A DNA stretch of 45,990 nucleotides from contig DVID01000015.1 in NCBI GenBank assembly GCA_018711625.1, positions 1-45,990 on the forward strand, given 5' to 3'. The translations under genes and the position numbers were made by a program. The notes below the pieces were generated by a model. It was not told the origin of the DNA and did not search any database. It was given only the letters and a program-made list of their open reading frames with translations. This DNA is from Candidatus Limicola stercorigallinarum (GTDB taxonomy: Bacteria > Actinomycetota > Coriobacteriia > Coriobacteriales > Coriobacteriaceae). Numbering within the stretch: the first letter of the stretch is position 1; the number at the start of each line of letters is the position of its first letter. Positions 493 through 14,608 of the stretch are shown piece after piece.

Positions 493-3400
493 ATGAGATT
501 ATTCCACAATAGCAGGCTTCTGGAGTACCGCTCCCCCTTTGGCGCGGTTCCTGCTGGCACCTCCATCGAGCTTATGGTTCGCGTTGAGGCCGAACCGAGT
601 GAGCACGATGTTCACGTTATCCTGCGTACATGGGTAGACGGAGAAGGCGAGCGCCGTCACAAGATGATTGAAAGCGGCAACGGCTGCTATCGCTGCACGC
701 TCGACTGCGATCGTCCCGCCATTATTTGGTACTCCTTCATCGCGCGCTGCGACGTAGAAGGCACAACGCAGGAACACGAGGTGCGCTGCGGTGCTCCCCA
801 GGGACACACCGGTGGCGAAGGCGTAACCTACGACTACGAAAACGTTCCCTCGTTCCAGATTACTGTCTATGTCCCCCGCACCATACGCCCCACATGGTAT
901 GAGCGGGGCATGGTGTACCAGATCTTCCCCGATCGCTACCGCAGGGACGCTCACTGGCACGAACGCTCTGAGCAAGCACTTACAGGCGACCGCGCGGGTA
1001 CGCCCCGTCGTATCGTAGAAGACTGGAACGAGCCACCCGTATACGAGCGCAACCCCGATAGCTCCATTGCCTGCTGGGACTTCTATGGTGGGTCGCTGCG
1101 CGGCATCACAGAAGACCTTGGACGCCTTCAGGAGCTGGGTGTCACCGCCATCTATCTCAATCCCATTTTTGAAGCTCAGAGCAACCACCGCTACGACACG
1201 GCCAACTACATGAAGATCGACCCCATGCTGGGCACGGAGGAAGACTTCAAGGAGCTCTGCCAAGCAGCCCGCGAGCACGGCATCTCGATCATTTTGGATG
1301 GCGTGTTCAACCATACGGGAGACGATTCGCTCTACTTCAACCGCTACGACAACTATCCGGGCGTTGGAGCCTGGCAAAGCGAAGACTCCCCCTGGCGTGA
1401 TGCGTACTGCTTTAACGAAGATGGCACCTATGGCTGCTGGTGGGGCATTGGCAACATGCCCGACCTCAACCAAGACTCTGAGAAGGTGCGCGAACTGCTC
1501 CTGGGTGAGGATGGCGTAATCCGCCACTGGACACGCGCGGGAGCCTCGGGATGGCGTCTGGATGTAGCCGATGAGCTTTCTGAAGAGGTCATTGAGGGCA
1601 TCCGCACGGTTCTTCTGGAAGAAAAGCCTGACGCGCTTTTGCTGGGCGAGGTCTGGGAAGACGCCTCGAACAAGATTAGCTATGGCAAACCGCGCCATTA
1701 CCTGCTGGGCAGCGAGCTCGACTCTGCCATGAACTACCCGTTCCGCGACATGGTGATCGACTTCCTCATGGGCAACATCGATGCTGCCGGTGCCGCCGAG
1801 GTGATCGAGAGCTTGCGCGAGAATTATCCTCCTGAGGCGCTTGCCTGCGCCCTCAACCTCTTGAGCAGCCACGACCGTCCACGCATCATCTCGGTGCTGG
1901 GCGGCGGTCCCGCCGAGGGCGAGATTCCCGAGGAGGAGCGGGGGCGCTGGCGCCTCTCCCCTGAGGCCATGGGCCTTGCTAAGGCACGCTTCTGGCTCGC
2001 CACCCTCATGCAGATGACCTTCCCGGGCGTACCTTCCATCTATTACGGCGACGAGTACGGCCTTGAGGGGCTCTCTGATCCTGGCAACCGTCGTACCTTG
2101 CCGCTTGAGGAAAACATTCACGACTTTGACATGCTCGCCATCGTGAAGAATGCTGCTGGCGTGCGCCGTGCCCTCCCCTTCATGGTTGATGGCACCATTG
2201 AGGCCGCTGCGCTCAAGCCCGATGTGCTGAGCTACACGCGCACGGGCACCGATGGCCAGTGTGCCACCGTCCTCATCAACCGTAGCCGCAGCGAAAGCAA
2301 TGTTGTGCGCATTCCCGCGCACGGCGAGATGGCAACCGACATTGTCTCGGGCACGGAATACGAGGCCGACGAGGAGGGCATGATCGAGCTCACGCTGTGG
2401 CCGTTTGGCTCTGCCGTGGTGTATTTCCACAACAAGCAGCGCCTTCAGAAGCCCCTTGAGCCGGGTGCTGGCGTGGTGTGCCACATCACCTCCGTCCCCG
2501 CCTTGAATAGCCGCCAGGGCACACTTGGGGTGCCGTCCCGTCGTTTCATCGACCACCTTGCCACCATGGGCTTCCGCTATTGGCAGGTGCTGCCGGTGAA
2601 CCCCACCGATCAGTTCCGCTCGCCCTACTCCGGACCTTCCGCCTTTGCCGGCAACATCGACCTCCTTCCCGAAACCGAGAAAGAGCTGCGTGCCGAGTTC
2701 AAGACATGGAAAGCTCACGGCGGTGCGCTCACCGACCCCGAGTACCGTGCGTTCACAAAGCGCAATGCTTTCTGGCTTGAGCCCTACTGCGCCTTCATGT
2801 CGGTAAAGACTGCCTTTGAGGGCAGCTCGCGCCATACATGGCCGGCCGCGCTCGCGCGCTATGACGGGAAGATTCTCCGCAGCCCCAAGTATCGACCCGA
2901 GGCCGAGGTGCAGGCGTACTTCCAGTACCGCTTCGACCAAGCCTGGCGCAAAATGATCGAGCACGCCCATGCGCGCGGCATCCAAATCATCGGCGACATT
3001 CCTATGTATGTCTCTGACGATTCTGCCGATGTGTGGGAGCATCCCGAGCTCTTTATGCTCGACGAGGACGGCAGGCCTTCGGGTATTGCCGGCGCGCCGC
3101 CAGATGGATTTGCGCCGCAGGGCCAGGTGTGGGGCAACCCCACCTATCGCTGGGACGTTATGCGCAAGGACAACTACCAGTGGTGGACGAAGCGCCTGGA
3201 GCGCGCCTGCGCGCTCTACGATTACGTGCGCCTCGATCACTTCTTGGGATTCCACAACTACTTCTGCATCCCCGCTGGCGAGCCTGGCTCAAAGGGCCGC
3301 TGGCTCATCGGCCCTGGCAAGGAGCTCTTCGACCGCATCCACGACAAGCTGGGCGACCTGCCCTTCATTGGCGAGGACCTCGGTGTGCTCACACCGGGCG

Positions 3401-3825
3401 TGCGTTCGCTCGTGGCCACCTGCGGCTTTCCCGGTATGGACGTGCTTGAGTTTAGCGACTACAACGTGCTCGAAGGCCTGCATCCCCACGAGAGCAAGGT
3501 GTTCTACACCTCCACGCACGACACTGCTCCCCTCGTGGGCTTCTGCGAGCGCTCCTTTGCAGACGGCGACCGCACGCATGCACAAGCCCTGAGCACCAAC
3601 CTCATCACCAACGCCCTGCAAACAGATGTTGACGTGGTGATGATGCCCCTGCAGGATGTCTTGGGCCTGGGCGACGAGGCCCGCATGAACGTGCCCGGTG
3701 TGGCTGACGGCAACTGGACCTGGCAGGCTGCCGAGGAAGCTATCCTGAAGGCTGAAGCGCGAACTGCGCAGCTGCTACACGATACAGGCCGATTCTTCCC
3801 CGGTGAGGCTCGTTCAGGCGCATAG
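493..3825 (+). CDS. Bifunctional GH13 alpha-glucosidase/amylase - GH77 4-alpha-glucanotransferase
   Basis: A 1110-residue cytoplasmic enzyme (no signal peptide) for maltodextrin or glycogen breakdown. Residues 1-130 form a beta-rich N-terminal domain as in neopullulanase-type GH13 enzymes. Residues 140-645 are a GH13 barrel with the DGVFNH region, nucleophile Asp357 (GWRLD), acid/base Glu386 (LLGEVW) and Asp461 (SSHDRPR). Residues 655-1105 are a GH77 amylomaltase with nucleophile Asp915 (VRLDHFLGF), Glu961 (GEDLG) and Asp1010 (STHD). All six catalytic carboxylates are present, so both halves should be active. Inference: the GH13 half trims or debranches and the GH77 half disproportionates the short glucans. 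The ATG follows a GAGG site at 482-485. Separate proteins (GlgX or MalZ-like plus MalQ) do this in most bacteria. Confidence 0.92.
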   Translation: MRLFHNSRLLEYRSPFGAVPAGTSIELMVRVEAEPSEHDVHVILRTWVDGEGERRHKMIESGNGCYRCTLDCDRPAIIWYSFIARCDVEGTTQEHEVRCGAPQGHTGGEGVTYDYENVPSFQITVYVPRTIRPTWYERGMVYQIFPDRYRRDAHWHERSEQALTGDRAGTPRRIVEDWNEPPVYERNPDSSIACWDFYGGSLRGITEDLGRLQELGVTAIYLNPIFEAQSNHRYDTANYMKIDPMLGTEEDFKELCQAAREHGISIILDGVFNHTGDDSLYFNRYDNYPGVGAWQSEDSPWRDAYCFNEDGTYGCWWGIGNMPDLNQDSEKVRELLLGEDGVIRHWTRAGASGWRLDVADELSEEVIEGIRTVLLEEKPDALLLGEVWEDASNKISYGKPRHYLLGSELDSAMNYPFRDMVIDFLMGNIDAAGAAEVIESLRENYPPEALACALNLLSSHDRPRIISVLGGGPAEGEIPEEERGRWRLSPEAMGLAKARFWLATLMQMTFPGVPSIYYGDEYGLEGLSDPGNRRTLPLEENIHDFDMLAIVKNAAGVRRALPFMVDGTIEAAALKPDVLSYTRTGTDGQCATVLINRSRSESNVVRIPAHGEMATDIVSGTEYEADEEGMIELTLWPFGSAVVYFHNKQRLQKPLEPGAGVVCHITSVPALNSRQGTLGVPSRRFIDHLATMGFRYWQVLPVNPTDQFRSPYSGPSAFAGNIDLLPETEKELRAEFKTWKAHGGALTDPEYRAFTKRNAFWLEPYCAFMSVKTAFEGSSRHTWPAALARYDGKILRSPKYRPEAEVQAYFQYRFDQAWRKMIEHAHARGIQIIGDIPMYVSDDSADVWEHPELFMLDEDGRPSGIAGAPPDGFAPQGQVWGNPTYRWDVMRKDNYQWWTKRLERACALYDYVRLDHFLGFHNYFCIPAGEPGSKGRWLIGPGKELFDRIHDKLGDLPFIGEDLGVLTPGVRSLVATCGFPGMDVLEFSDYNVLEGLHPHESKVFYTSTHDTAPLVGFCERSFADGDRTHAQALSTNLITNALQTDVDVVMMPLQDVLGLGDEARMNVPGVADGNWTWQAAEEAILKAEARTAQLLHDTGRFFPGEARSGA

Positions 3826-3871
3826 CCGCTTATGGGAGCACACCTCGGCGCTCCCAACATATAGACTCCCC

Positions 3872-3908
3872 AGCGCGTCCACATGTTCTTCGCAGCATGG
3901 GACGCGCT
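3872..3908 (+). terminator. Possible terminator or hairpin after the glucan enzyme gene
   Basis: A perfect 9-bp stem AGCGCGTCC / GGACGCGCT (3872-3880 with 3900-3908) with a 19-nt loop. A weaker 7-bp hairpin sits at 3833-3856. Neither has a good T-tract, so termination is only possible; the structure could also lie in the leader of the next gene. Confidence 0.4.
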
Positions 3909-3956
3909 TTGGGGTACAGTACGTATGTTTGTTTGTACGGAAAGGATCAACGCATC

Positions 3957-4223
3957 ATGGCACGTTATGACTATCGTTGCACGAGCTGCGGCAATGTTTT
4001 TGAAGTTGAGCACGGCATGTCTGAGCATCCAGAGATTGTATGCCCTACGTGCGGCGCTCCAGCAACCAAGGTGTTTAGCGCAAGCGGCATCAAGTTTGAG
4101 GGCAGCGGCTTTTACAACACCGACCAGCGCGGTGGCAGCTCCAGCACGGCTGCAACCTCCGGCTCCTCGGAAGGTTCAAGCGCTGGCCACAGCTGCGAGA
4201 ACTGCCCACACAATAAGGAATAG
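3957..4223 (+). CDS. FmdB-family zinc-ribbon protein
   Basis: An 88-residue protein that opens with the FmdB-type zinc ribbon: MARYDYRCTSCG, then CPTCG about 25 residues later, giving two CxxC pairs that should bind one zinc. A Ser/Gly/Thr-rich linker follows, and the end (residues 80-85) carries another CxxC. FmdB-type proteins are putative regulators of unknown molecular role. The ATG at 3957 is preferred because GGAAAGG lies just upstream and the conserved domain begins there; a longer reading frame adds only unconserved sequence. A hairpin at 4286-4310 follows. Confidence 0.85.
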   Translation: MARYDYRCTSCGNVFEVEHGMSEHPEIVCPTCGAPATKVFSASGIKFEGSGFYNTDQRGGSSSTAATSGSSEGSSAGHSCENCPHNKE

Positions 4224-4285
4224 CCTCGTTGCTTGCACATGGACGCATGGGCACGCAAACGCGAAACAGGTAAAGCCAGTAGGTG

Positions 4286-4312
4286 AAAGCGCCCCGGCAA
4301 GGGGCGCTTTGC
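4286..4312. terminator. Bidirectional terminator between convergent genes
   Basis: A 10-bp perfect stem AAAGCGCCCC / GGGGCGCTTT (4286-4295 with 4301-4310) with a 5-nt loop. It lies between the convergent fmdB-like and rsmB genes, with short T runs on both strands. Confidence 0.7.
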
Positions 4313-4420
4313 TGTTATTCCGGGCTGGTTTTAGTGCGAATTGGAGGGGGACATCTTAACTCATGACGAAAAACGGTGTGAGGAACTAAACGCTTGGGCA
4401 AGGCGAATTATGCGCAACGC

Positions 4421-5830
4421 CTAGGCACGCCGGACAAAGCGGGCGCAGAAATGGCCATCAAAGGTGCCGAGCGTGGGCACCGTTTGGAAGCACCCTTGAG
4501 CATTCTCATGCTCGCGCAGGTAGGCCGCTGCTGCGCGACATCCCTCATGGTCAAATACAGGCGCGGATGAAACGGGAACACAGGTAAACTCCCGGCCCGC
4601 CTCACTCGACAAGAAGGCATCCACAACATCGTGGTTCTCTGAGCGGAGCACCGAGCAGGTGGCATAGAGGAGCTGCCCCGCGGGCTTCACCTGGCGTGCC
4701 GCCTCCTCAAGCATCGCGAGCTGCAATGCTGGGAGCGCGCGCTCCACGTCCTCTTTATCAAGGCGCCAGGGAATCTCAGGGTGACGGCGCATCGTTCCGG
4801 TACCCGAGCACGGCGCATCCACCAGCACCGTGTCAAATAGCACAGGCAAGTCAGCTTGTTGGTCAAGCGTCTGCAGTGCCCGCCCGAGCTGCGTACCATC
4901 GCCTGTGGCAATGATTATGCCGGCATCAAGCCCCGCCGCGTGCAATCGTGCACGGTTGAGCTCGCCTTTGCGCGGCGAAAGGTCAACCGCAACATGTTCG
5001 CCGTGCCATCCCAGGCGCTCCTCTTGAGCAGCGATGACAAACGTTTTTGTACCGCGGCCAGCACCCACTTCAAGCAGGGCACCTGGAGCAGTGGCAGCAG
5101 TTGCCACCAGCTGCGCGTTAAGGTCGGAGGCAACCGCACCGGCGCGTGTAAGGGCACCTGAAGAGATAAGGTGACGTGCGTCTGGTCCTTGCATCAAGCC
5201 GGGCAGCAAAGTATCAGGCGCAGCAAGCGGCAAAGACGTAGATTCACGGGCCGCCGCAAGCGGGTTTCCGTGGAACGCAAGAGGGGCAGGTTCAAGCTCC
5301 CCCGCTTCAAGCGCACGTGCCGCCTCGGTACCAAGCGAGCGCTCCAAGGCGGCATCAAGCCACACCGGAAGGCCCGCCGCACGGGCTTGAGCCACCTGTT
5401 CCCGCTGGTCGGGAGGCACATCGCACGCAGCGAGATACCCCTCACGAGCCTCAGCCATCTTGCGGAGCACGGCATTCGCCAAGCCAGCAGCACTCCGGGC
5501 AGACGAGCGCACCAGCTCAACGCCTTGGCTCACCGCCACAGCAGGTGCCCGATTGAGATACACAAGCTCAAAGGCGGCTAGACGAAGCGCCATACGCACG
5601 CGTGCATCAAGGCGCCCGGGGCGCGTCACAAAGCGATCGATCAGCTCATCAAGGCAACCCACCGTAGCTGTTGTTCCCAGAGCAAGGCGCAAGGCCAAGC
5701 CAGCATCGCGCTCGTCGAGCGCTCGAAACGCATCGGCTGCCTCAAGCACTTCGCGCACATAGGAATCTTGGCGGCCTGCCTCCACTAGCGCCGTACAGGC
5801 AAGTTTGCGGGCGGGAGCCAGCTTGCTCAC
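4421..5830 (-). CDS. rsmB: 16S rRNA (cytosine-967-C5)-methyltransferase RsmB
   Basis: 469 residues from a GTG start whose bases overlap the fmt stop codon (GTGA), with GGGAGGCG upstream; a longer frame to 5878 would run into fmt and is not used. An N-terminal NusB-like RNA-binding helical domain (about residues 1-140) is followed by a Rossmann-fold SAM methyltransferase. Visible motifs are the SAM loop LLEVGAGRGTKT, motif IV DAPCSGTGTMRRHPE with its Pro-Cys, and motif VI YATCSVLRSEN with the catalytic Cys. Members methylate C967 of 16S rRNA. The overlap implies translational coupling with fmt, a common pairing. Confidence 0.93.
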   Translation of the reverse strand: MSKLAPARKLACTALVEAGRQDSYVREVLEAADAFRALDERDAGLALRLALGTTATVGCLDELIDRFVTRPGRLDARVRMALRLAAFELVYLNRAPAVAVSQGVELVRSSARSAAGLANAVLRKMAEAREGYLAACDVPPDQREQVAQARAAGLPVWLDAALERSLGTEAARALEAGELEPAPLAFHGNPLAAARESTSLPLAAPDTLLPGLMQGPDARHLISSGALTRAGAVASDLNAQLVATAATAPGALLEVGAGRGTKTFVIAAQEERLGWHGEHVAVDLSPRKGELNRARLHAAGLDAGIIIATGDGTQLGRALQTLDQQADLPVLFDTVLVDAPCSGTGTMRRHPEIPWRLDKEDVERALPALQLAMLEEAARQVKPAGQLLYATCSVLRSENHDVVDAFLSSEAGREFTCVPVSSAPVFDHEGCRAAAAYLREHENAQGCFQTVPTLGTFDGHFCARFVRRA

Positions 5831-6744
5831 GAGAGCGCCTCCCAGCTTGACGTGCGCTCGCGCACGCCGGCAGCCCAAGCAGCGGCCTCCATGGCACGCT
5901 TGCCGTCGGGCTTGACCTCAATAAGCTCAATGCTGCCCTCGGCGCACCCCAAATACACGGCACCCGCTGCAATCTCCACCACACCCTGTGCAACAGCTCG
6001 ATCAGCCCTGAGCGCTCGTAGCACACGGAGCGTCTTTCCCGCCACAACACACCGTGCAGGTGCCGCATCCGATGATGCCAAAACGCGACGGACAATATCG
6101 TCCGCGACCATGGTGGGAGCAAGCAGCATCTCGCTCTTCTCAATTTTGGCGGCATGGGTTACCAGCGTTTCATCCTGCTCAACCCACTGCGCACTGCCAT
6201 CGGCGATGGCCGGCAACGTAGCAGCAAGCAGCTTGCCACCAAGTTCAGCCAGATCCGCCGTTAGCTCATCCGCAGTCTTGCCCGCAACCGGACAAGACGC
6301 CTGTGCACAATACGCGCCGGTGTCAACGCCATGGCCAATACGCATGATAGAGACACCCGTCTCGTCATCGCCCGCAAGGATGCTCCGCTGAATGGGTGCC
6401 GCGCCGCGCCAGCGCGGGAGCAACGACGCATGCACGTTCACGCAACCCAAGGGTGCCATGGTAAGAACCTCATCGGGAAGGATACAGCCATAAGCCGCCA
6501 CGCAGAAGATATCAGCATCCGCCGCACGCAACGCTTCGAGCACCTCGGGCGTCATGCGCTTAGCCTCAAGCGCGGGAATCTCAAGCTCCTGTGCGGCCAC
6601 CTTCACCGGTGACGGTTCGAGCTTTTTGCCGCGAGAGCGCACCGCATCGGGCCGTGTGAGCACAAGGGCAACCTCATGTTCACGCGCCACATGTTGAAGA
6701 GATGGAACCGAAAAGCTAGGTGTGCCCATAAATACCACGCGCAT
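5827..6744 (-). CDS. fmt: Methionyl-tRNA formyltransferase
   Basis: 305 residues. It transfers formyl from 10-formyl-tetrahydrofolate to initiator Met-tRNA. The N-terminus MRVVFMGTP is the conserved beginning, with GGGGGA upstream of the ATG at 6744, so the longer frame is rejected. The catalytic centre is visible: Asn103 and His105 in VNVHASLLPRWRGAAPIQ and Asp141 in GHGVDTGAY. The C-terminal third is the OB-like tRNA-binding domain. It overlaps rsmB by 4 nt and lies 75 nt downstream of def, the enzyme that later removes the formyl group. Confidence 0.95.
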   Translation of the reverse strand: MRVVFMGTPSFSVPSLQHVAREHEVALVLTRPDAVRSRGKKLEPSPVKVAAQELEIPALEAKRMTPEVLEALRAADADIFCVAAYGCILPDEVLTMAPLGCVNVHASLLPRWRGAAPIQRSILAGDDETGVSIMRIGHGVDTGAYCAQASCPVAGKTADELTADLAELGGKLLAATLPAIADGSAQWVEQDETLVTHAAKIEKSEMLLAPTMVADDIVRRVLASSDAAPARCVVAGKTLRVLRALRADRAVAQGVVEIAAGAVYLGCAEGSIELIEVKPDGKRAMEAAAWAAGVRERTSSWEALS

Positions 6745-6819
6745 GGCGTCCCCCTTACCGTCAACCCTCAAACCTGAAACGAGACACATGCGCCCGGCAC
6801 GATAGTCTCGGTTGCGTCG

Positions 6820-7359
6820 CTACGCCTCGGTGTCGCCCGGCTGGGCACCCTTAGCGAGCGCCTCCTGATAACACCTAAGGGCATGCACGCGCTCCTGCGG
6901 CTTCAAGCGCTCAAACATGGTGATGCCATGCAGGTGGTCGATCTCGTGCTGCAGGCACACGCACATCAAGTCGCCCGTGGCCTCGTAACGCATGAGGTTC
7001 GCATCAAGGTCGTACGCCTCAACAACCACGTGATCTGGACGCTCAATCTCAACGCTGATGCCCGGGATGGAAAGGCACCCCTCGCTAGAGGGACGCGTCG
7101 TGTCCGACTGTTCAACCACTACGGGGTTGATGAGCACATAGGGGTCGTAGTCCTTCTCGGAGGTGTAGTCCACATCAACAATCACAAGCTGTACAAGCTC
7201 GCCCACCTGGGGTGCGGCAAGACCACAGCCGCGATTCTCAAACATCTCGGCCTTCATGTGCTCAACAAGCTGCTCAATCTCGGGCGTGACCTCCTCAATG
7301 GGGGCGCACTCCTGACGAAGGCGTGGATCGGGCGAGATCACAATGCCATTAGCTTCCAT
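6820..7359 (-). CDS. def: Peptide deformylase
   Basis: 179 residues. A metalloenzyme that removes N-formyl from nascent proteins. The three family motifs are intact: GCGLAAPQVG (45-54), EGCLS with metal ligand Cys95, and QHEIDHLHG with His138 and His142 as ligands and Glu139 as catalytic base. The ATG at 7359 follows AAAGGGA; a longer frame to 7395 adds unconserved residues. It sits between priA (gap 64 nt) and fmt in the same direction, the usual def-fmt arrangement. Confidence 0.95.
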   Translation of the reverse strand: MEANGIVISPDPRLRQECAPIEEVTPEIEQLVEHMKAEMFENRGCGLAAPQVGELVQLVIVDVDYTSEKDYDPYVLINPVVVEQSDTTRPSSEGCLSIPGISVEIERPDHVVVEAYDLDANLMRYEATGDLMCVCLQHEIDHLHGITMFERLKPQERVHALRCYQEALAKGAQPGDTEA

Positions 7360-7423: not shown

Positions 7424-9784
7424 CTACATGAGGTCGTAGGCGTCAACGTCCACGCCCACAGATACATCGCGCACAGAGCCTGCACGTCGCAACGCCGCTG
7501 CAATACTCTCCGAGATATGGTACCCCAGCGGGCTCTTAACCATCACGTGGAAACGGTACCGGTCTTTTGCCCGCTCAATCACACAAGGCGTGGGCCCAAG
7601 CACCACCACATCACGCGCCAGCGCATCATGGCCCCCTGCGGCCTGGCACACCTCCGTCAGCTCAGCCGCAATGCGCGTGGCCTGGCGCCGCACGCGCTCC
7701 CCATCGCAGCCGCGTGACACGATGTTGGTCAGGTGCACAAACGGTGGATACCCCACAGCAGCGCGGGTTTTAAGGTCATGCTCAAGATAAAGGGAGCGAT
7801 CGTGCGCCGCCACCGCACGAATCACGGGGTCCTGTGGAAGGTAGGTTTGAATAACCACCTCGCCCGCGCGCTCGCCACGTCCTGCACGGCCCGCAAGCTG
7901 CTCAAGCAGGTCAAACGCGCGCTCGGACGCGCGGAAATCGGGCATCTTGAGGGCATAATCGGCATTGATCACGCCCGCGAGCGTGACCTCCGGGAAGTCC
8001 AGACCCTTTGCGATCATCTGCGTGCCAAGCAGCACGGCGCAGTCCGCCGCATCAAACGCTTCGAGAAGACGCTGGTGAGCCCCTTTGGTACGGGTGGAAT
8101 CGGCATCCATGCGGATGATGGCCACATCGGGCGGCAGAAGCGCACGAAGCGCGTCTTCCACCTGCTGGGTTCCCACACCCATCTTGGCCAGATAGCGGCT
8201 ACCACAGCGCGGGCAAGCAGACCCCGCAGCCGGATACGGGCGCACCGGATACGAGGCACCGCAGGTATGACATACAAGCATATGCGTGCGCTCGTGATAG
8301 GTAAGCGCAGTTGAGCAATGCTTGCAGGTGGGCACGCAGCCGCACTCGCGACACATCAAGAAGGGCGCAAACCCACGTCGGTTGTGCAGAAGAACCGCCT
8401 TCTCGCGGTTTGCAACCACGCGCTGCAACCCTTCGAGAAGAGGGCGTGAAAAGAGCGACCGCGACCCTGCGGCAAACTCACGGCGCAAATCGGCAATCAC
8501 AACACGAGGCAGCTGAGCACCGGCGGGTCGCTCAGGCATCTCAACACGTGTCCACCGAGTGCCATCGTACGTGCCAGCATCACAGCGCGCATACGCCTCA
8601 AGCGAGGGGGTAGCCGAACCCAGCACCAACGCGCAGCCGTATACCTTCGCCATATAGGCTGCCAGCTCTCGCGCATGATAGCGCGGGCTCGAACCCTGCT
8701 TATACGATTGTTCGTGTTCCTCGTCTATCACGATGAGGCCAAGGGAGGCAAAGGGGCAAAAGAGCGCCGAACGCGCACCCACCACCACCCGAGCTACGCC
8801 CGAGCGAACCATGTCCCACTGGTCAAGCCGTTCCCCCGCCGAAAGCCGCGAGTGAAACACGGCAATGGCATCGCCAAAGCGTGAGCGAAAGCGTCCAACC
8901 GTTTGCGCCGTAAGCGAAATCTCGGGAACAAGCACGCATGCGGACCGGCCCGTAGCAAGCACGCGTTCAATCGCAGCAAGGTACACCTCGGTCTTGCCCG
9001 AACCCGTAACACCATCCACGAGCACGCAATCGCCGCTCGCTGCCTCTACCGCCTCGTCAATGGCAGCAAGTGCCCGCTGCTGCCCCTCGGTAAGATGCTC
9101 GGGGCGCTGCGCCTGCGCCGACGAGAGCGAGGTGCCATCGGGCTGACCGCGCCATGCGCGTTGCTCCACCACCTGCACGACACCACGCTTCTCAAGCGCT
9201 TTTACCGTTGTGGTCATGTGAGGACACAGCGCATTAAGCTCAGACGTGGTAAGGGGGCCGCACGCAAGCGCGTCCATCAGCTGGCGCTGTCGGGAGGCGC
9301 GCGCCGCAGGTGTAAAGGTACGGCCCGCCTCGGTAAGCGAAACCACATGCTGATGCGCCTCGTGAGCCGTAGGCTCCTCAACACAATACGACCCATCGGG
9401 AAGCATCTGAACGTGTCCCGCCCGTCCCGGCGGAAGAAAAAGCCGCAAGCATTCCGAAAGCGGGGCCACATAGGTCTCGGCCAACCACCGGGCAATACGC
9501 ACCGCCTGAGGCCGAAACGCCGCGCCTTCCAGCACCTGTGCAACCGGCTTCAGGCGCGCAGGATCAAGGGAGCCAGCACCCAAATCCTCCAGATTGTGCG
9601 CAAGCGCTACCACATAGCCAGCAACCATCCGTGCACCAAGCGGCACCACCGCCGTTGCGCCCACCTCAAGGGCGGGCGCAAGCGGTGCGGGAACTGCATA
9701 GGTAAAGGGCTCGCTGAGGGCACGTGCCGGCACATCGAGCACAATTGAGGCGAATGGTGCGTACTCCTCCGCCGGCATCATCAT
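7424..9784 (-). CDS. priA: Primosomal protein N' (replication restart helicase PriA)
   Basis: 786 residues. A 3'-5' DNA helicase that reloads the replisome at stalled forks. The N-terminal DNA-binding domain (about 1-200) is followed by a superfamily 2 helicase core with Walker [15 protein letters not shown] and a DEEH box ([12 protein letters not shown]). The zinc-binding insertion has eight cysteines in four CxxC-like pairs (from CRECGC to CPRCG), and the helicase C domain includes [16 protein letters not shown]. The start is ambiguous: three ATG codons in a row (9784, 9781, 9778) overlap the metK stop, and the only upstream purine-rich site (AGGCGG) is distant. The overlap indicates coupling to metK. 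Confidence 0.93.
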
Positions 9785-11085
9785 GCCGAAGCAACCGCCT
9801 GGCGCAGTGCCTCCACGCGGTCAAGACGCTCCCAGGTGAAGTCGGGGTCCTCGCGGCCAAAGTGGCCGTAGGCAGCCGTCTTTTGGTAGATGGGACGGCG
9901 CAGGTCGAGGTCTCGGATAATGGCACCGGGACGCAGGTCGAATACCGTATCGATAGCCTGCTCAATCGAGGCGACCGGAACGTGCTCGGTGCCAAACGTC
10001 TCAACCATAATCGAGAGCGGGTGCGCCACGCCAATGGCGTAGGCAAGCTGTACCTCGCAGCGGTCGGCCAAGCCGGCAGCCACCACGTTCTTTGCCACCC
10101 AACGCGCAGCGTAGGCAGCAGAACGGTCGACCTTTGTGCAATCCTTGCCGCTAAACGCACCGCCGCCATGGCGTCCCATGCCGCCGTAGGTGTCCACGAT
10201 AATCTTGCGCCCGGTAAGACCCGTATCGCCCATGGGGCCGCCCACCACAAAGCGGCCGGTGGGGTTCACATAGATCTGCGCCTCACGCCATGCGATCTCT
10301 TCGGCATCCATCACGGGCGCGATCACATGCTCGATCAGGTCGCGCTTGATGATATTCATGTCCTCAACGTCCGCCGCATGCTGCGTGGAGATAACGATGG
10401 TCTCAACGCTCACCGGGCGACCATCTTCGTAGCGCACGGTCACCTGTGTTTTGCCGTCAGGGCGCAGATACGGCAGCGTGCCATCATGACGAACCGCCGC
10501 AAGACGTTCAGCAAGACGACTTGCCAGATGATGGGGCATGGGCATAAAGGCACGCGTCTCGTTGGTGGCATAGCCAAACATCATGCCCTGGTCGCCAGCG
10601 CCAATGCGATCGAGCGGATCGCTTGCACCCGCCTGGGCGTCAAACGACTCATCAACACCCTGGGCAATGTCGGGACTCTGACCATGGATCATATTGATAA
10701 CCCCACAGGTGGTGCCATCGAACCCGTACTTTGCGCGGTCGTAGCCAATGCGGCAGATCACGTCGCGGGCGATGCGCTGAATATCAACGTAGGCCTGCGT
10801 GCGAATCTCACCAGAAATAACCACCATGCCGGTGGTAAGCATGGTCTCGCAGGCGCAGCGCACGTTCTCAAGCTTTGCAGGAACGCCGTCCGTATCGACG
10901 TAACCCATTGCCTCGAGCTTGGCCTCTTTAGCAAGAATAGCATCGAGCACCGCGTCCGAAATCTGATCGGCAATCTTATCGGGATGACCCTCGGTAACCG
11001 ATTCCGAGGTGAACAGATAGCTGCGTGCGCTCATATCGTTCGCCGCCTGCTCCTCGACCATGGTGGAACGAGTGGTGTTTGGCAT
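9781..11085 (-). CDS. metK: S-adenosylmethionine synthetase
   Basis: 434 residues from the ATG at 11085. Makes SAM from methionine and ATP. Conserved signatures: [18 protein letters not shown] (ATP/Met binding), [12 protein letters not shown], and the Gly-rich GGGAFSGKD phosphate loop followed by [11 protein letters not shown]. The ATG at 11085 follows AAAGGGGC at good spacing. An internal ATG at 11034 begins where most homologues begin, so the first 17 residues may be an extension. The 92 nt upstream show no recognisable SAM riboswitch. The product supplies RsmB, encoded two genes beyond the downstream priA and def/fmt genes. Confidence 0.94.
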
Positions 11086-11177: not shown

Positions 11178-13736
11178 CTATGAGCGAGCAAATGCATATT
11201 CGGGCCGCACATGACGGTAGCGCCGCACGGCAACAAGCGAGACCACAAGTGCTAGCACCGTCCAGGTAGCCAGCAGCGCCTCCGCGCCGCCAAAGCCTAT
11301 AAGCGAGCCCGAAACCGCCCCGCGCAGAGCATCGGCAAGCACAGGCACCGGCAGAACGGCACCCAAGGCATCAAAGATGCCACCGGTCATCGCTGCCGGC
11401 AAAATGCTTCCCGCGCATACCAGCTGCACAAGTGTTGCGAGGATAAGCACCACACCGGAGGCGCGCTCAAAGAGCAGCCACGCGGCCTGGGCCACCGCCG
11501 CGCTTGCAAGCGCAGCAAGCACCATCAAGGCGGCAAAGGCAGGCAAATTGGCAAGCTCGACACCGCCCACAAGCGCGACGAGCGCCACAATGACCACGGC
11601 CTGCACCACAGCGATACCAGCGCTTACCACAAAACTAGGAAGCACCGCCCAGAGAGGCCGCTCCGCAAACGCCGCGCGACCGTCATAGGCGGGAACCAGC
11701 GCGGAAGCCACAACAACGCCCATCCACAGCACCACAGCCGCCACTGTAGGCATGATCTGAGATGCCGAGCCATCCACGCGGTTGTTTACCGTGGATACAA
11801 AGGTCACAGGCGACGAAGCCACATCGGCTCGCGCGCTATAGTTGCTCGAAAGCTCGCTAAGGTCTTCACCGGCTTGAGACACGGTATCCATGATGCTCTT
11901 TTGGCCGTCGTGCAGCTGCGTTACACCAGCGGCAAGCTGACTTTGCACATCCGCGAGGGTGCCCATGCCACTCGAGAGGGCAGATGCGCCCGACCCCACA
12001 GCTTGCAGTGCCTCGCCCAAGGCATGGTTACCCGAAGCGATGCCCGAAGCAGCTGACGAGAAAGAACTCAGCACCTGCGGCAAGGCAGCTGTTCCCGTGG
12101 CGACGCCGGTTGCTGCCTGGCCAAACAGTCCGTCCTCAGCAAACATCTCCCCTACCTGTGTCACCTGCATACCAAGCGGCACAAGCGCCGAGGCGCCGCC
12201 GTCAACCAGAGCTTTGGCCTCTACCGCACTACCCAGAACAGAAGTTGTGGGGTCAACAAGCTTGGTCGCAAGCTCAGAAAGCGTACCTGCCGCGTCATCG
12301 ACACCGGCCTTGGCAGCCCCAAACTCGCCTGCCGCCGTATCAACCGCCGCACTCTGGGCGCCCAGTGACGAAAGCGCCTCGTCAGCCGTTCCCATCTGGT
12401 CGGCAACCGTCTGCGCTTGGTCTTGCACCATATCAAGCTGTTCGGAGAGCTGCGTGCGCTCCTGAGTAAGCGCATCAAGCTCATCGAGCAGCGCAAGCGC
12501 GTCCGCCCCCGACGATGCAGCCCCACCGGAGAGAAGCGTACGCAGTTCTGCCACGACGTCGGCCGTGCGTGTATCAAGGTCATGAGTGCGCAGCACAAGG
12601 CCGGGGGTCTCCGGCGTTGCGGGATTGCCTGCAAGCGATGTGACAAGCGCCTTTGCTGCCGCGTGTGCCTCATCAACCGAAGACACCGCTGTGTTCGCCG
12701 TGCCCACAAGCGATTCCGTAGACGCAGTCACCGCATCAAGCGCTGTGTTCGTGCCCTCAAGAGCTTGCTCAAGCGATGCTTGCTGCTGCGAAAATGCTGC
12801 CGCCGTGCCCGCCACATCGGAAAGACCGGCGATGGTCTCACTCAATGAATCAGAAACGCGCTGGAGCCCCTGACCCGTTTGCGTAGCAGCTGTACCAAGC
12901 GCGGTGATACCCTCGCTCGCCGCCGTCACGCCCGCCGCCAGACTCTCGGCCCCTGCGGCAAGCGGCTCCACGAGTTCGGTCGTGGTGGTATTCATGCCGT
13001 CGGCAAGCGCCTGCGCACCGCTACCCGCGGCAACAACACCATCAGCAATCTGCGCGGTGCCATCAACAAGAGCCGAGGTGCCCGAAGCCATCTGGTCCAG
13101 ACCGTCGGCCACGCCGGACGCGCCCTGCTCAAGCGCCTCGTAGCCGCTATCGAGCATGACCGATCCGTCCGCGGCAAGCGTAAGGCTCGATGCCGAGCCA
13201 TTCACATCGTTCAACACACCTACAAGGTAGTCTTCACCCACATCGGAACGCAGGCGCATCTGCGCACGGCGGAGCACCTCAGAGCCCGCCTTCGTTGCCA
13301 GTACATTCTGACTTCCGTCCGAGATGATGTTGACCTGGGCGCGCTCGGGATTGCCGCTATCAAGGCTTACGATCTTTGAGGAATAATCCTCGGGGATCTC
13401 AAACACCAGCGCGTAAGAGCCTTCCGCCAGGCCGTCGCGGGCGTGGTCTTGATCCACAACGTCCCAGGCGAGCTCGCCTGATTCTTGCAGCGACTCTACC
13501 AGGTCGTTGCCCGCATTGACGGTTTTGCCCGAATCGTCCGTAGCGCCCTCATCGAGGTTGACGAGCGCAACGGGAATGCGCTCGCCCGCATCAAGCGCAG
13601 GCGCAATCGCAGCAATAAGCACAACGGCAACCAAGGCGGGCGCTATGAGCGCAACAACACATGCTGCCGTGCGAGCGCGACTGCGCGTAAGGCGTGCAGA
13701 CACCCCGTGCAACGCATCCACGAGTGAATTCATCAT
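11178..13736 (-). CDS. YhgE/Pip-family membrane protein (ABC-2-like)
   Basis: 852 residues. One N-terminal membrane helix (about 23-48) is followed by a 600-residue extracytoplasmic region and about five C-terminal helices (about 655-845), the layout of the YhgE/Pip family (phage-infection protein relatives, including EsaA of type VII secretion). The loop has many Leu-x-x-Gly repeats about 7 residues apart (for example [19 protein letters not shown]), predicting long helical bundles outside the cell. The start ATGATG overlaps the stop of the upstream ABC-ATPase-like gene, so the two are probably made together. Function unknown; export or envelope assembly is an inference. Confidence 0.85.
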
Positions 13737-14566
13737 GCCATCATCTTCTCGGCAGCACGAAACGCATCGAGCGATTCAGCCGCAGCCATATCAAGCGGGG
13801 TTGTCTCAGGGGCAGCACAGGCTGCCTGCACTTCACTGGTTGCTACAAGCACCGCAATGCCACGCATCTCAGCATAGCGTTGGGCCGCCTGCGTGAGCGC
13901 CACGGCGTCCGCTGAGGAAAGTCCCGCCACAAAGGGATCGGTCAGGTCAACCAGTGCCACGCGCGGCGCTCCCACACAAGCAAGTGCCAAGGAAAGCCGG
14001 GCGCGCGTTTGAGCGTCGAGGCGCTCTACGCGCTGCTCGGAGGCCGTTGCAAGGCCAAAATGAGCAAGGTAGCTAAGCACATCGTCCGAAGGAGACGCGT
14101 CCTGCTCGTCGGAAGCTGCTGAAGCTGCCACGCTTCCGGCGGAATTGGCGGCATCCGCAGCTACGTTGTCAGCACGCAGCGCACGACCTCCGCGTATACG
14201 AAGACGTGCCTCGTGCTGAACCGCCTCGGCCACAGTGAGCGTGCCCGCCACCTCGGCAACACGCTCAAATACACCAATGCCTGCAATGCCACGCGGCAAC
14301 GGGTCACGTGTAGGAATCCAAGAGGGGCGACGCCTACGCGACGAAGCTCCTGTGCGGGCAAGCCCCACCCCGCACACTGAGAGCGACCCTTCCACGGGGC
14401 GCACCCGCCCCGCAACCGCAAGCAGCAAATCGCGAGCAGGGCCATGTTCAGAAGAAAACAAGACATGCACCGCGCCAGGCCTTACCGAGAAACTCACAAA
14501 CTGAAACGAGCGATACGCACGCGTTTGATACGAAGCGTCGTGCGCGATAATAATCGGATCGTCCAC
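13733..14566 (-). CDS. Degenerate ABC-transporter ATPase-like protein
   Basis: 277 residues from a GTG at 14566 with AGGAAGG nine bases upstream. An ATG at 14653 is also in frame, but that start would cover the gltX promoter. The fold order matches an ABC ATPase: a beta-strand start (FVSFSVRPGAVHVLF), a P-loop position (37-46), a signature position (181-190) and a Walker B position (203-211). The key residues are missing: FSSEHGPARD has no Gly-Lys-Ser/Thr, ERLDAQTRAR replaces LSGGQxxR, and VALVDLTDP has Leu-Thr where Asp-Glu is expected. A long Ala/Ser/Arg-rich insertion occupies 70-165. It probably cannot hydrolyse ATP. It is coupled to the YhgE/Pip gene. Alternatively, a decaying but still open gene. 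Confidence 0.7.
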   Translation of the reverse strand: MDDPIIIAHDASYQTRAYRSFQFVSFSVRPGAVHVLFSSEHGPARDLLLAVAGRVRPVEGSLSVCGVGLARTGASSRRRRPSWIPTRDPLPRGIAGIGVFERVAEVAGTLTVAEAVQHEARLRIRGGRALRADNVAADAANSAGSVAASAASDEQDASPSDDVLSYLAHFGLATASEQRVERLDAQTRARLSLALACVGAPRVALVDLTDPFVAGLSSADAVALTQAAQRYAEMRGIAVLVATSEVQAACAAPETTPLDMAAAESLDAFRAAEKMMA

Positions 14567-14608
14567 TGCGGCCGACCTTCCTGGTTGCAATCGATACACC
14601 TTCAGGAG

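Follow-up and report, generated by a model that had tools for sequence, protein, structure and literature searches.

YhgE/Pip proteins are widespread and have been linked to phage infection and to secretion; we know of no established biochemical activity for them. They are known from phage infection (PMC4999554) and are relatives of EsaA (PMC4999554; PMC10765036), and they have already been grouped near ABC-2 transporters (PMC3924187). The available part of one of these papers presents the described YhgE/Pip proteins without an ATPase-like partner (PMC4999554), whereas the YhgE/Pip gene studied here overlaps a gene for a protein that resembles the nucleotide-binding domain (NBD) of ABC transporters. 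The protein shares features with the described family (TIGR03061/TIGR03062; TCDB 9.B.74 phage infection protein; Lactococcus Pip, Enterococcus PIPEF). Its N-terminal domain matched TIGR03061 above the cut-off (E 2.5e-34, 118.3 bits; cut-off 96.15), and one N-terminal TM helix and about five C-terminal ones flank a long, mostly helical extracytoplasmic part. For the C-terminal domain, the TIGR03062 match extended across nearly the full profile (E 2.4e-18) but scored below the cut-off (66.5 bits; cut-off 102.2).

Three other kinds of system can be compared with this locus. ABC-2 exporters with a separate NBD (DrrAB-, CcmAB-, KpsMT- and TarGH-like) and ABCA-type transporters share with it the gene order, NBD and then permease, the NBD fold, the PF12698 domain and an ABC-2-like TM block. 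In contrast to these exporters, the NBD-like protein lacks the Walker A motif, the Q-loop Gln, the signature, the catalytic Glu and the switch His, and the permease carries a very long helical insert. EsaA and YueB of type VIIb secretion have a related N-terminal domain and a long surface-exposed region (PMC10765036), but the protein described here falls under the EsaA cut-off and its genome has no EssC over the cut-off. Heterodimeric ABC transporters such as MsRv1273c/72c and BmrCD likewise have a degenerate NBD site from which catalytic residues were lost (PMC12038006). They keep a second, active site, however, while the only linked NBD here is without every motif. The preliminary description had suggested that the combination would be a new kind of export or envelope complex. 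Our literature search, within open-access papers, found no paper on the dead-NBD partner or on the pair, and in that scope the conserved partner appears to be undescribed. The claim of novelty has to be narrowed in two respects, since one such gene pair is already annotated at NCBI, its members being named 'ATP-binding cassette domain-containing protein' and 'YhgE/Pip', and the kinship with ABC-2 transporters was known.

The window, by which we mean the whole 45,990-nt stretch of DNA that was analyzed, is one contig (C5) of a 1.96-Mb Coriobacteriaceae genome that is in 49 contigs and 95% complete. The features of the locus are collected in Table 1. The junction GCATGATGAATTC contains the ATGA by which the two frames overlap. 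The metK gene lies 53 bases downstream of the YhgE/Pip gene, and gltX lies upstream of the NBD-like gene in divergent orientation. Reading frames, profiles, the structural model and the alignment agreed with the coordinates, the overlap, the topology and the motif loss reported in the preliminary description. Elsewhere in the window, positions 493-3825 (+) encode a 1110-aa fusion of alpha-amylase (GH13) and 4-alpha-glucanotransferase (GH77) domains.

Table 1. Features of the NBD-like and YhgE/Pip gene pair; positions are those of the window.
Feature	Position	Strand	Remark
Shine-Dalgarno-like AGGAAGG, 9 nt upstream of the GTG of the NBD-like gene	14576..14582	(-)	sequence element; putative function
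ABC NBD-like subunit, 277 aa, GTG start, without catalytic motifs	13733..14566	(-)	
Walker A position, SSEHGPAR (residues 38-45), then Asp46	14432..14455	(-)	alignment to canonical NBDs
LSGGQ signature position, LDAQT (residues 183-187)	14006..14020	(-)	signature absent
Walker B position, VALVDLT (residues 203-209)	13940..13960	(-)	Asp207 retained; catalytic Glu replaced by Leu
ATGA, 4-nt overlap of NBD-like stop and YhgE/Pip start	13733..13736	(-)	
YhgE/Pip membrane protein, 852 aa	11178..13736	(-)	
YhgE TM helix 1, core (residues 26-44)	13605..13661	(-)	
YhgE long helical extracytoplasmic region (residues 145-640), xxxLxxG repeats	11817..13304	(-)	
YhgE C-terminal TM block, ABC-2-like (residues 658-839)	11220..11765	(-)	
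YhgE TM2-TM3 loop (residues 681-693), Arg687; candidate NBD-like docking site	11658..11696	(-)	docking putative, confounded by phylogeny

The single sequence of the NBD-like protein was weakly recognized by profiles (PF00005, E 0.09; TIGR03864, 4e-8). An AlphaFold2 model made with 29 homologues as input (pLDDT 88) was compared with known structures and gave NBD matches throughout (Foldseek E 4e-12). By VIA-align the model matched HrtA with a Z of 21.1 over 205 residues, and FtsE, LolD and LptB were also matched. When the family profile was searched against the PDB, the best matches were ABCA-type NBDs (ABCA4/ABCA3, 1.5e-33). An ABC NBD fold is confidently predicted for this protein.

The sequence motifs of an ABC ATPase are missing from this predicted fold. 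At the aligned position the canonical Walker A GxxxxGK[ST] is absent, the Q-loop column has no Gln, and the switch position reads ATSE, with no switch His. Walker A was absent in all of the Coriobacteriaceae members read; the Arg at residue 45 is conserved there and is usually followed by the Asp at residue 46. The ATP site of ABC NBDs is composed of Walker A from one subunit and the signature from the other. An NBD-like subunit without Walker A and signature therefore leaves no complete site, even when it is paired with a normal NBD. Judged by its motifs, the Coriobacteriaceae subunit is incapable of building a normal ATP site, and it would presumably not turn over ATP. Degeneration specific to this strain was considered and ruled out, the motif loss being common to all Coriobacteriaceae homologues examined.

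The resemblance of the YhgE/Pip protein to ABC-2 permeases was examined by profile and by model. PF12698 (ABC2_membrane_3) matched over its cut-off (2.8e-9, 37 bits; cut-off 31.6), and the TM block matched an ABCG23-like ABC-2 exporter (3e-6) in a profile search whose other matches were mostly coiled coils and were given no weight. A structural model (pLDDT 74, pTM 0.50), of low confidence in parts of the helical region, placed in order one TM helix, an alpha/beta domain, the long helical region and the C-terminal TM block. Foldseek hits for this model were weak (all E > 0.01) and included KpsM, TarG, CcmB and ABCA1/4. The TM2-TM3 loop was considered as proof of an NBD interface, with Arg or Lys present in 47/48 linked and 11/55 non-linked YhgE proteins. 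This argument was dropped because three NBD-less YhgE proteins from the linked region of the tree (L127-L129) retain the loop feature, which thus follows phylogeny and is not clearly tied to the partner. The gene downstream of each of these three looked by eye like that of a TetR-type regulator.

Within the Coriobacteriaceae the two genes were always found together. Both were present in 26 of 67 genomes, neither was present in 41, and no genome held a single one of them; in all 26 the YhgE/Pip gene was directly downstream of the NBD-like gene. Because 26 of the 67 genomes hold the pair and none holds one half, the pairing is more than chance. These counts support the proposal, made in the preliminary description, of a dedicated ABC-like partner without catalytic motifs that is conserved with YhgE/Pip. 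The order gltX, NBD-YhgE pair, metK is conserved in most pair-bearing loci, and the same 4-nt overlap was found in 15 of 23. Twelve pair-less genomes were examined, with a metK match in 11, and in these 11 gltX and metK were adjacent; eight had a gap of 165-817 bp and the other three one of 1.4-2.7 kb. The pair is thus present or absent as a unit. Values of dN/dS were 0.19-0.47 for the NBD-like gene and 0.21-0.29 for YhgE, below 0.5 in every pair tested, which shows purifying selection on both genes.

A search of relatives for the same gene pair found it not only in Coriobacteriaceae but also in further members of the Coriobacteriia, in Streptomyces and Rhodococcus, and in a few Bacillota. The arrangement occurs in Eggerthellaceae (Gordonibacter, Slackia) and Olsenella profusa. 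In a phylum survey, 14 of the 16 loci read from outside the Coriobacteriia had it; these belong to Streptomyces and other Actinomycetota. In Rhodococcus an annotated ATP-binding cassette protein adjoins YhgE/Pip. The Bacillota with the pair were Carboxydothermus, Thermoactinomyces and Croceifilum, and most Bacillota YhgE/Pip loci examined had no NBD-like neighbor. These surveys are samples of species, several of the assemblies are incomplete, and the trees are quick ones. No natural NBD-YhgE fusion was found among the ORFs scanned. At locus L120 an MMPL protein encoded directly upstream of YhgE/Pip (7778-10699, (-)) carries a fused NBD-like domain at its C-terminus.

None of 56 YhgE-linked NBDs had the signature or the Q-loop Gln, both of which were present in 14/14 canonical NBDs used as controls. 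The case of a normal ATPase in relatives, with only this strain degenerate, was therefore not encountered. Motif loss as first described holds throughout the linked NBDs for the signature and the Q-loop Gln but is graded for the rest: Walker A is complete in 12 of the 56, surviving in Eggerthellaceae and others, and has Arg for Lys in 13, and the Carboxydothermus protein keeps both Walker A and the Walker B Asp-Glu. In Streptomyces, the Walker A Lys is replaced by Arg. Going by these residues, nucleotide binding may persist in relatives with Walker A. A fully canonical NBD adjoining YhgE was not found in the sampled loci, so loss of catalysis is only the likely direction of change.

In an NBD tree the linked NBDs formed one clade (SH-aLRT 99.8) apart from the canonical NBDs, a small comparison set of 14 taken from the same loci, and the state of Walker A changed about six times on this tree. 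Linked YhgE proteins also clustered in their tree, with 4-5 changes as against about 42 with shuffled labels, and a set of 70 standalone or tandem YhgE proteins on the tree, mostly from Bacillota and Coriobacteriia, contained no linked one. Strict monophyly of a linked YhgE superclade was tried and given up; it received an SH-aLRT of 97 under LG+G4, but a mixture model requires two changes. Our claim from these trees is of clustering, not of strict monophyly. Some YhgE proteins in the linked part of the tree are NBD-less (L064-L066, L068, L070, L072, a few Bacillota), and these seem to do without the NBD-like gene.

We consider it probable that the two genes specify one ABC-2-type membrane complex whose NBD subunit has become a non-hydrolyzing structural or regulatory part. 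Such a complex would descend from an ABC-2-type exporter. YhgE/Pip would provide the membrane part and a helical stalk spanning the envelope, and the NBD-like protein would occupy the place of an NBD on its cytoplasmic side, where the TM2-TM3 loop with its conserved Arg could be the natural docking site. Acting without ATP hydrolysis, the NBD-like subunit might be a structural cap, a gate or a partner in assembly, maintaining the shape of YhgE or passing on a signal from the cytoplasm. From the sequences we infer a physical complex, a cap or gate role and descent from an active exporter, and for the pair a role in export or at the envelope. A broader scheme is conceivable and is put forward tentatively: a family in Actinomycetota and some Bacillota would have kept the NBD and shed ATP catalysis, standalone YhgE/Pip and EsaA proteins would have gone further and lost the subunit, and the exporter fold would work as an ATP-free envelope machine. 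It seems that this gut actinobacterium, like many of its relatives, has retained the fold of an ATP-driven pump without the engine. A conserved partner that is shaped like an ATP motor but does not work as one would explain the origin of the YhgE/Pip family and give a handle on its mechanism, and the graded motif loss across lineages would be a natural series of an ABC machine that loses its engine yet stays useful.

The NBD-like protein could instead be a regulator or assembly chaperone that serves only YhgE synthesis or turnover and has no lasting place as an NBD, the gene overlap serving co-translational assembly. The tight translational overlap agrees with this, as do the loss of all catalytic motifs from a protein whose fold and selection remain and the existence of NBD-less YhgE proteins within the same part of the tree. 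We regard this role as unlikely, because a whole-NBD fold with its best matches among exporter NBDs, next to an ABC-2-like permease, favors the ancestral NBD position, and because the NBD-like domain fused to an MMPL protein upstream of YhgE in genome G378 suggests a membrane-bound place.

A still ATP-driven ABC-2 exporter, powered by a canonical NBD that another gene encodes and that joins YhgE or the NBD-like subunit, is somewhat less probable again. The genome has many canonical NBDs, Walker A survives in part of the linked family, and it is well known that one site can be degenerate in heterodimeric ABC transporters (PMC12038006). However, both composite sites would be incomplete with the Coriobacteriaceae subunit, the signature and Q-loop Gln are missing from every YhgE-linked NBD examined, and the window has no canonical NBD gene adjacent to the pair.

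That YhgE instead belongs, as an EsaA-like component, to a type VII (b) secretion apparatus, with the NBD-like protein as an accessory, is very improbable. It would fit with the match to TIGR03929 (EsaA N-terminus; 1.2e-17) and with EsaA being a cell-wall-spanning dimer whose B. subtilis homologue is a phage receptor (PMC10765036). The TIGR03929 match reached only 64.1 bits, however (cut-off 122), the only match to the EssC model in the 95% complete genome scored 121 bits (cut-off 778), a value to be expected from an FtsK-type ATPase, and no T7SS genes were recognized beside the pair. With both models below their cut-offs, membership of the type VIIb system is unsupported. A decaying ABC gene without function beside YhgE would also have lost all its catalytic motifs, but this pseudogene reading was rejected as scarcely credible on the conserved pairing and the constrained dN/dS, the gene being kept in 26 species and lost together with YhgE, with an Arg-Asp replacement conserved at the P-loop.

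YhgE/Pip genes also occur in tandem with no NBD gene. Such tandems are common in Coriobacteriia, and most of the 41 pair-less Coriobacteriaceae genomes carry such a separate tandem pair. The genome studied here has one as well, on contig C44 (locus L054; 1925-4153 and 4158-6755, (-)). At locus L247 two YhgE/Pip proteins are naturally fused into one of 1539 aa (2612-7231, (+)), in which the N-terminal and the C-terminal domain are each matched twice, which suggests that tandem YhgE proteins may act as heterodimers. On contig C39 of the genome studied here (locus L246; 889-4905 and 4919-5668, (-)), a canonical LolD-type NBD adjoins a 1338-aa FtsX-type permease. With its long coiled-coil-like region and its NBD, this permease looks from its sequence like an active counterpart with a stalk.
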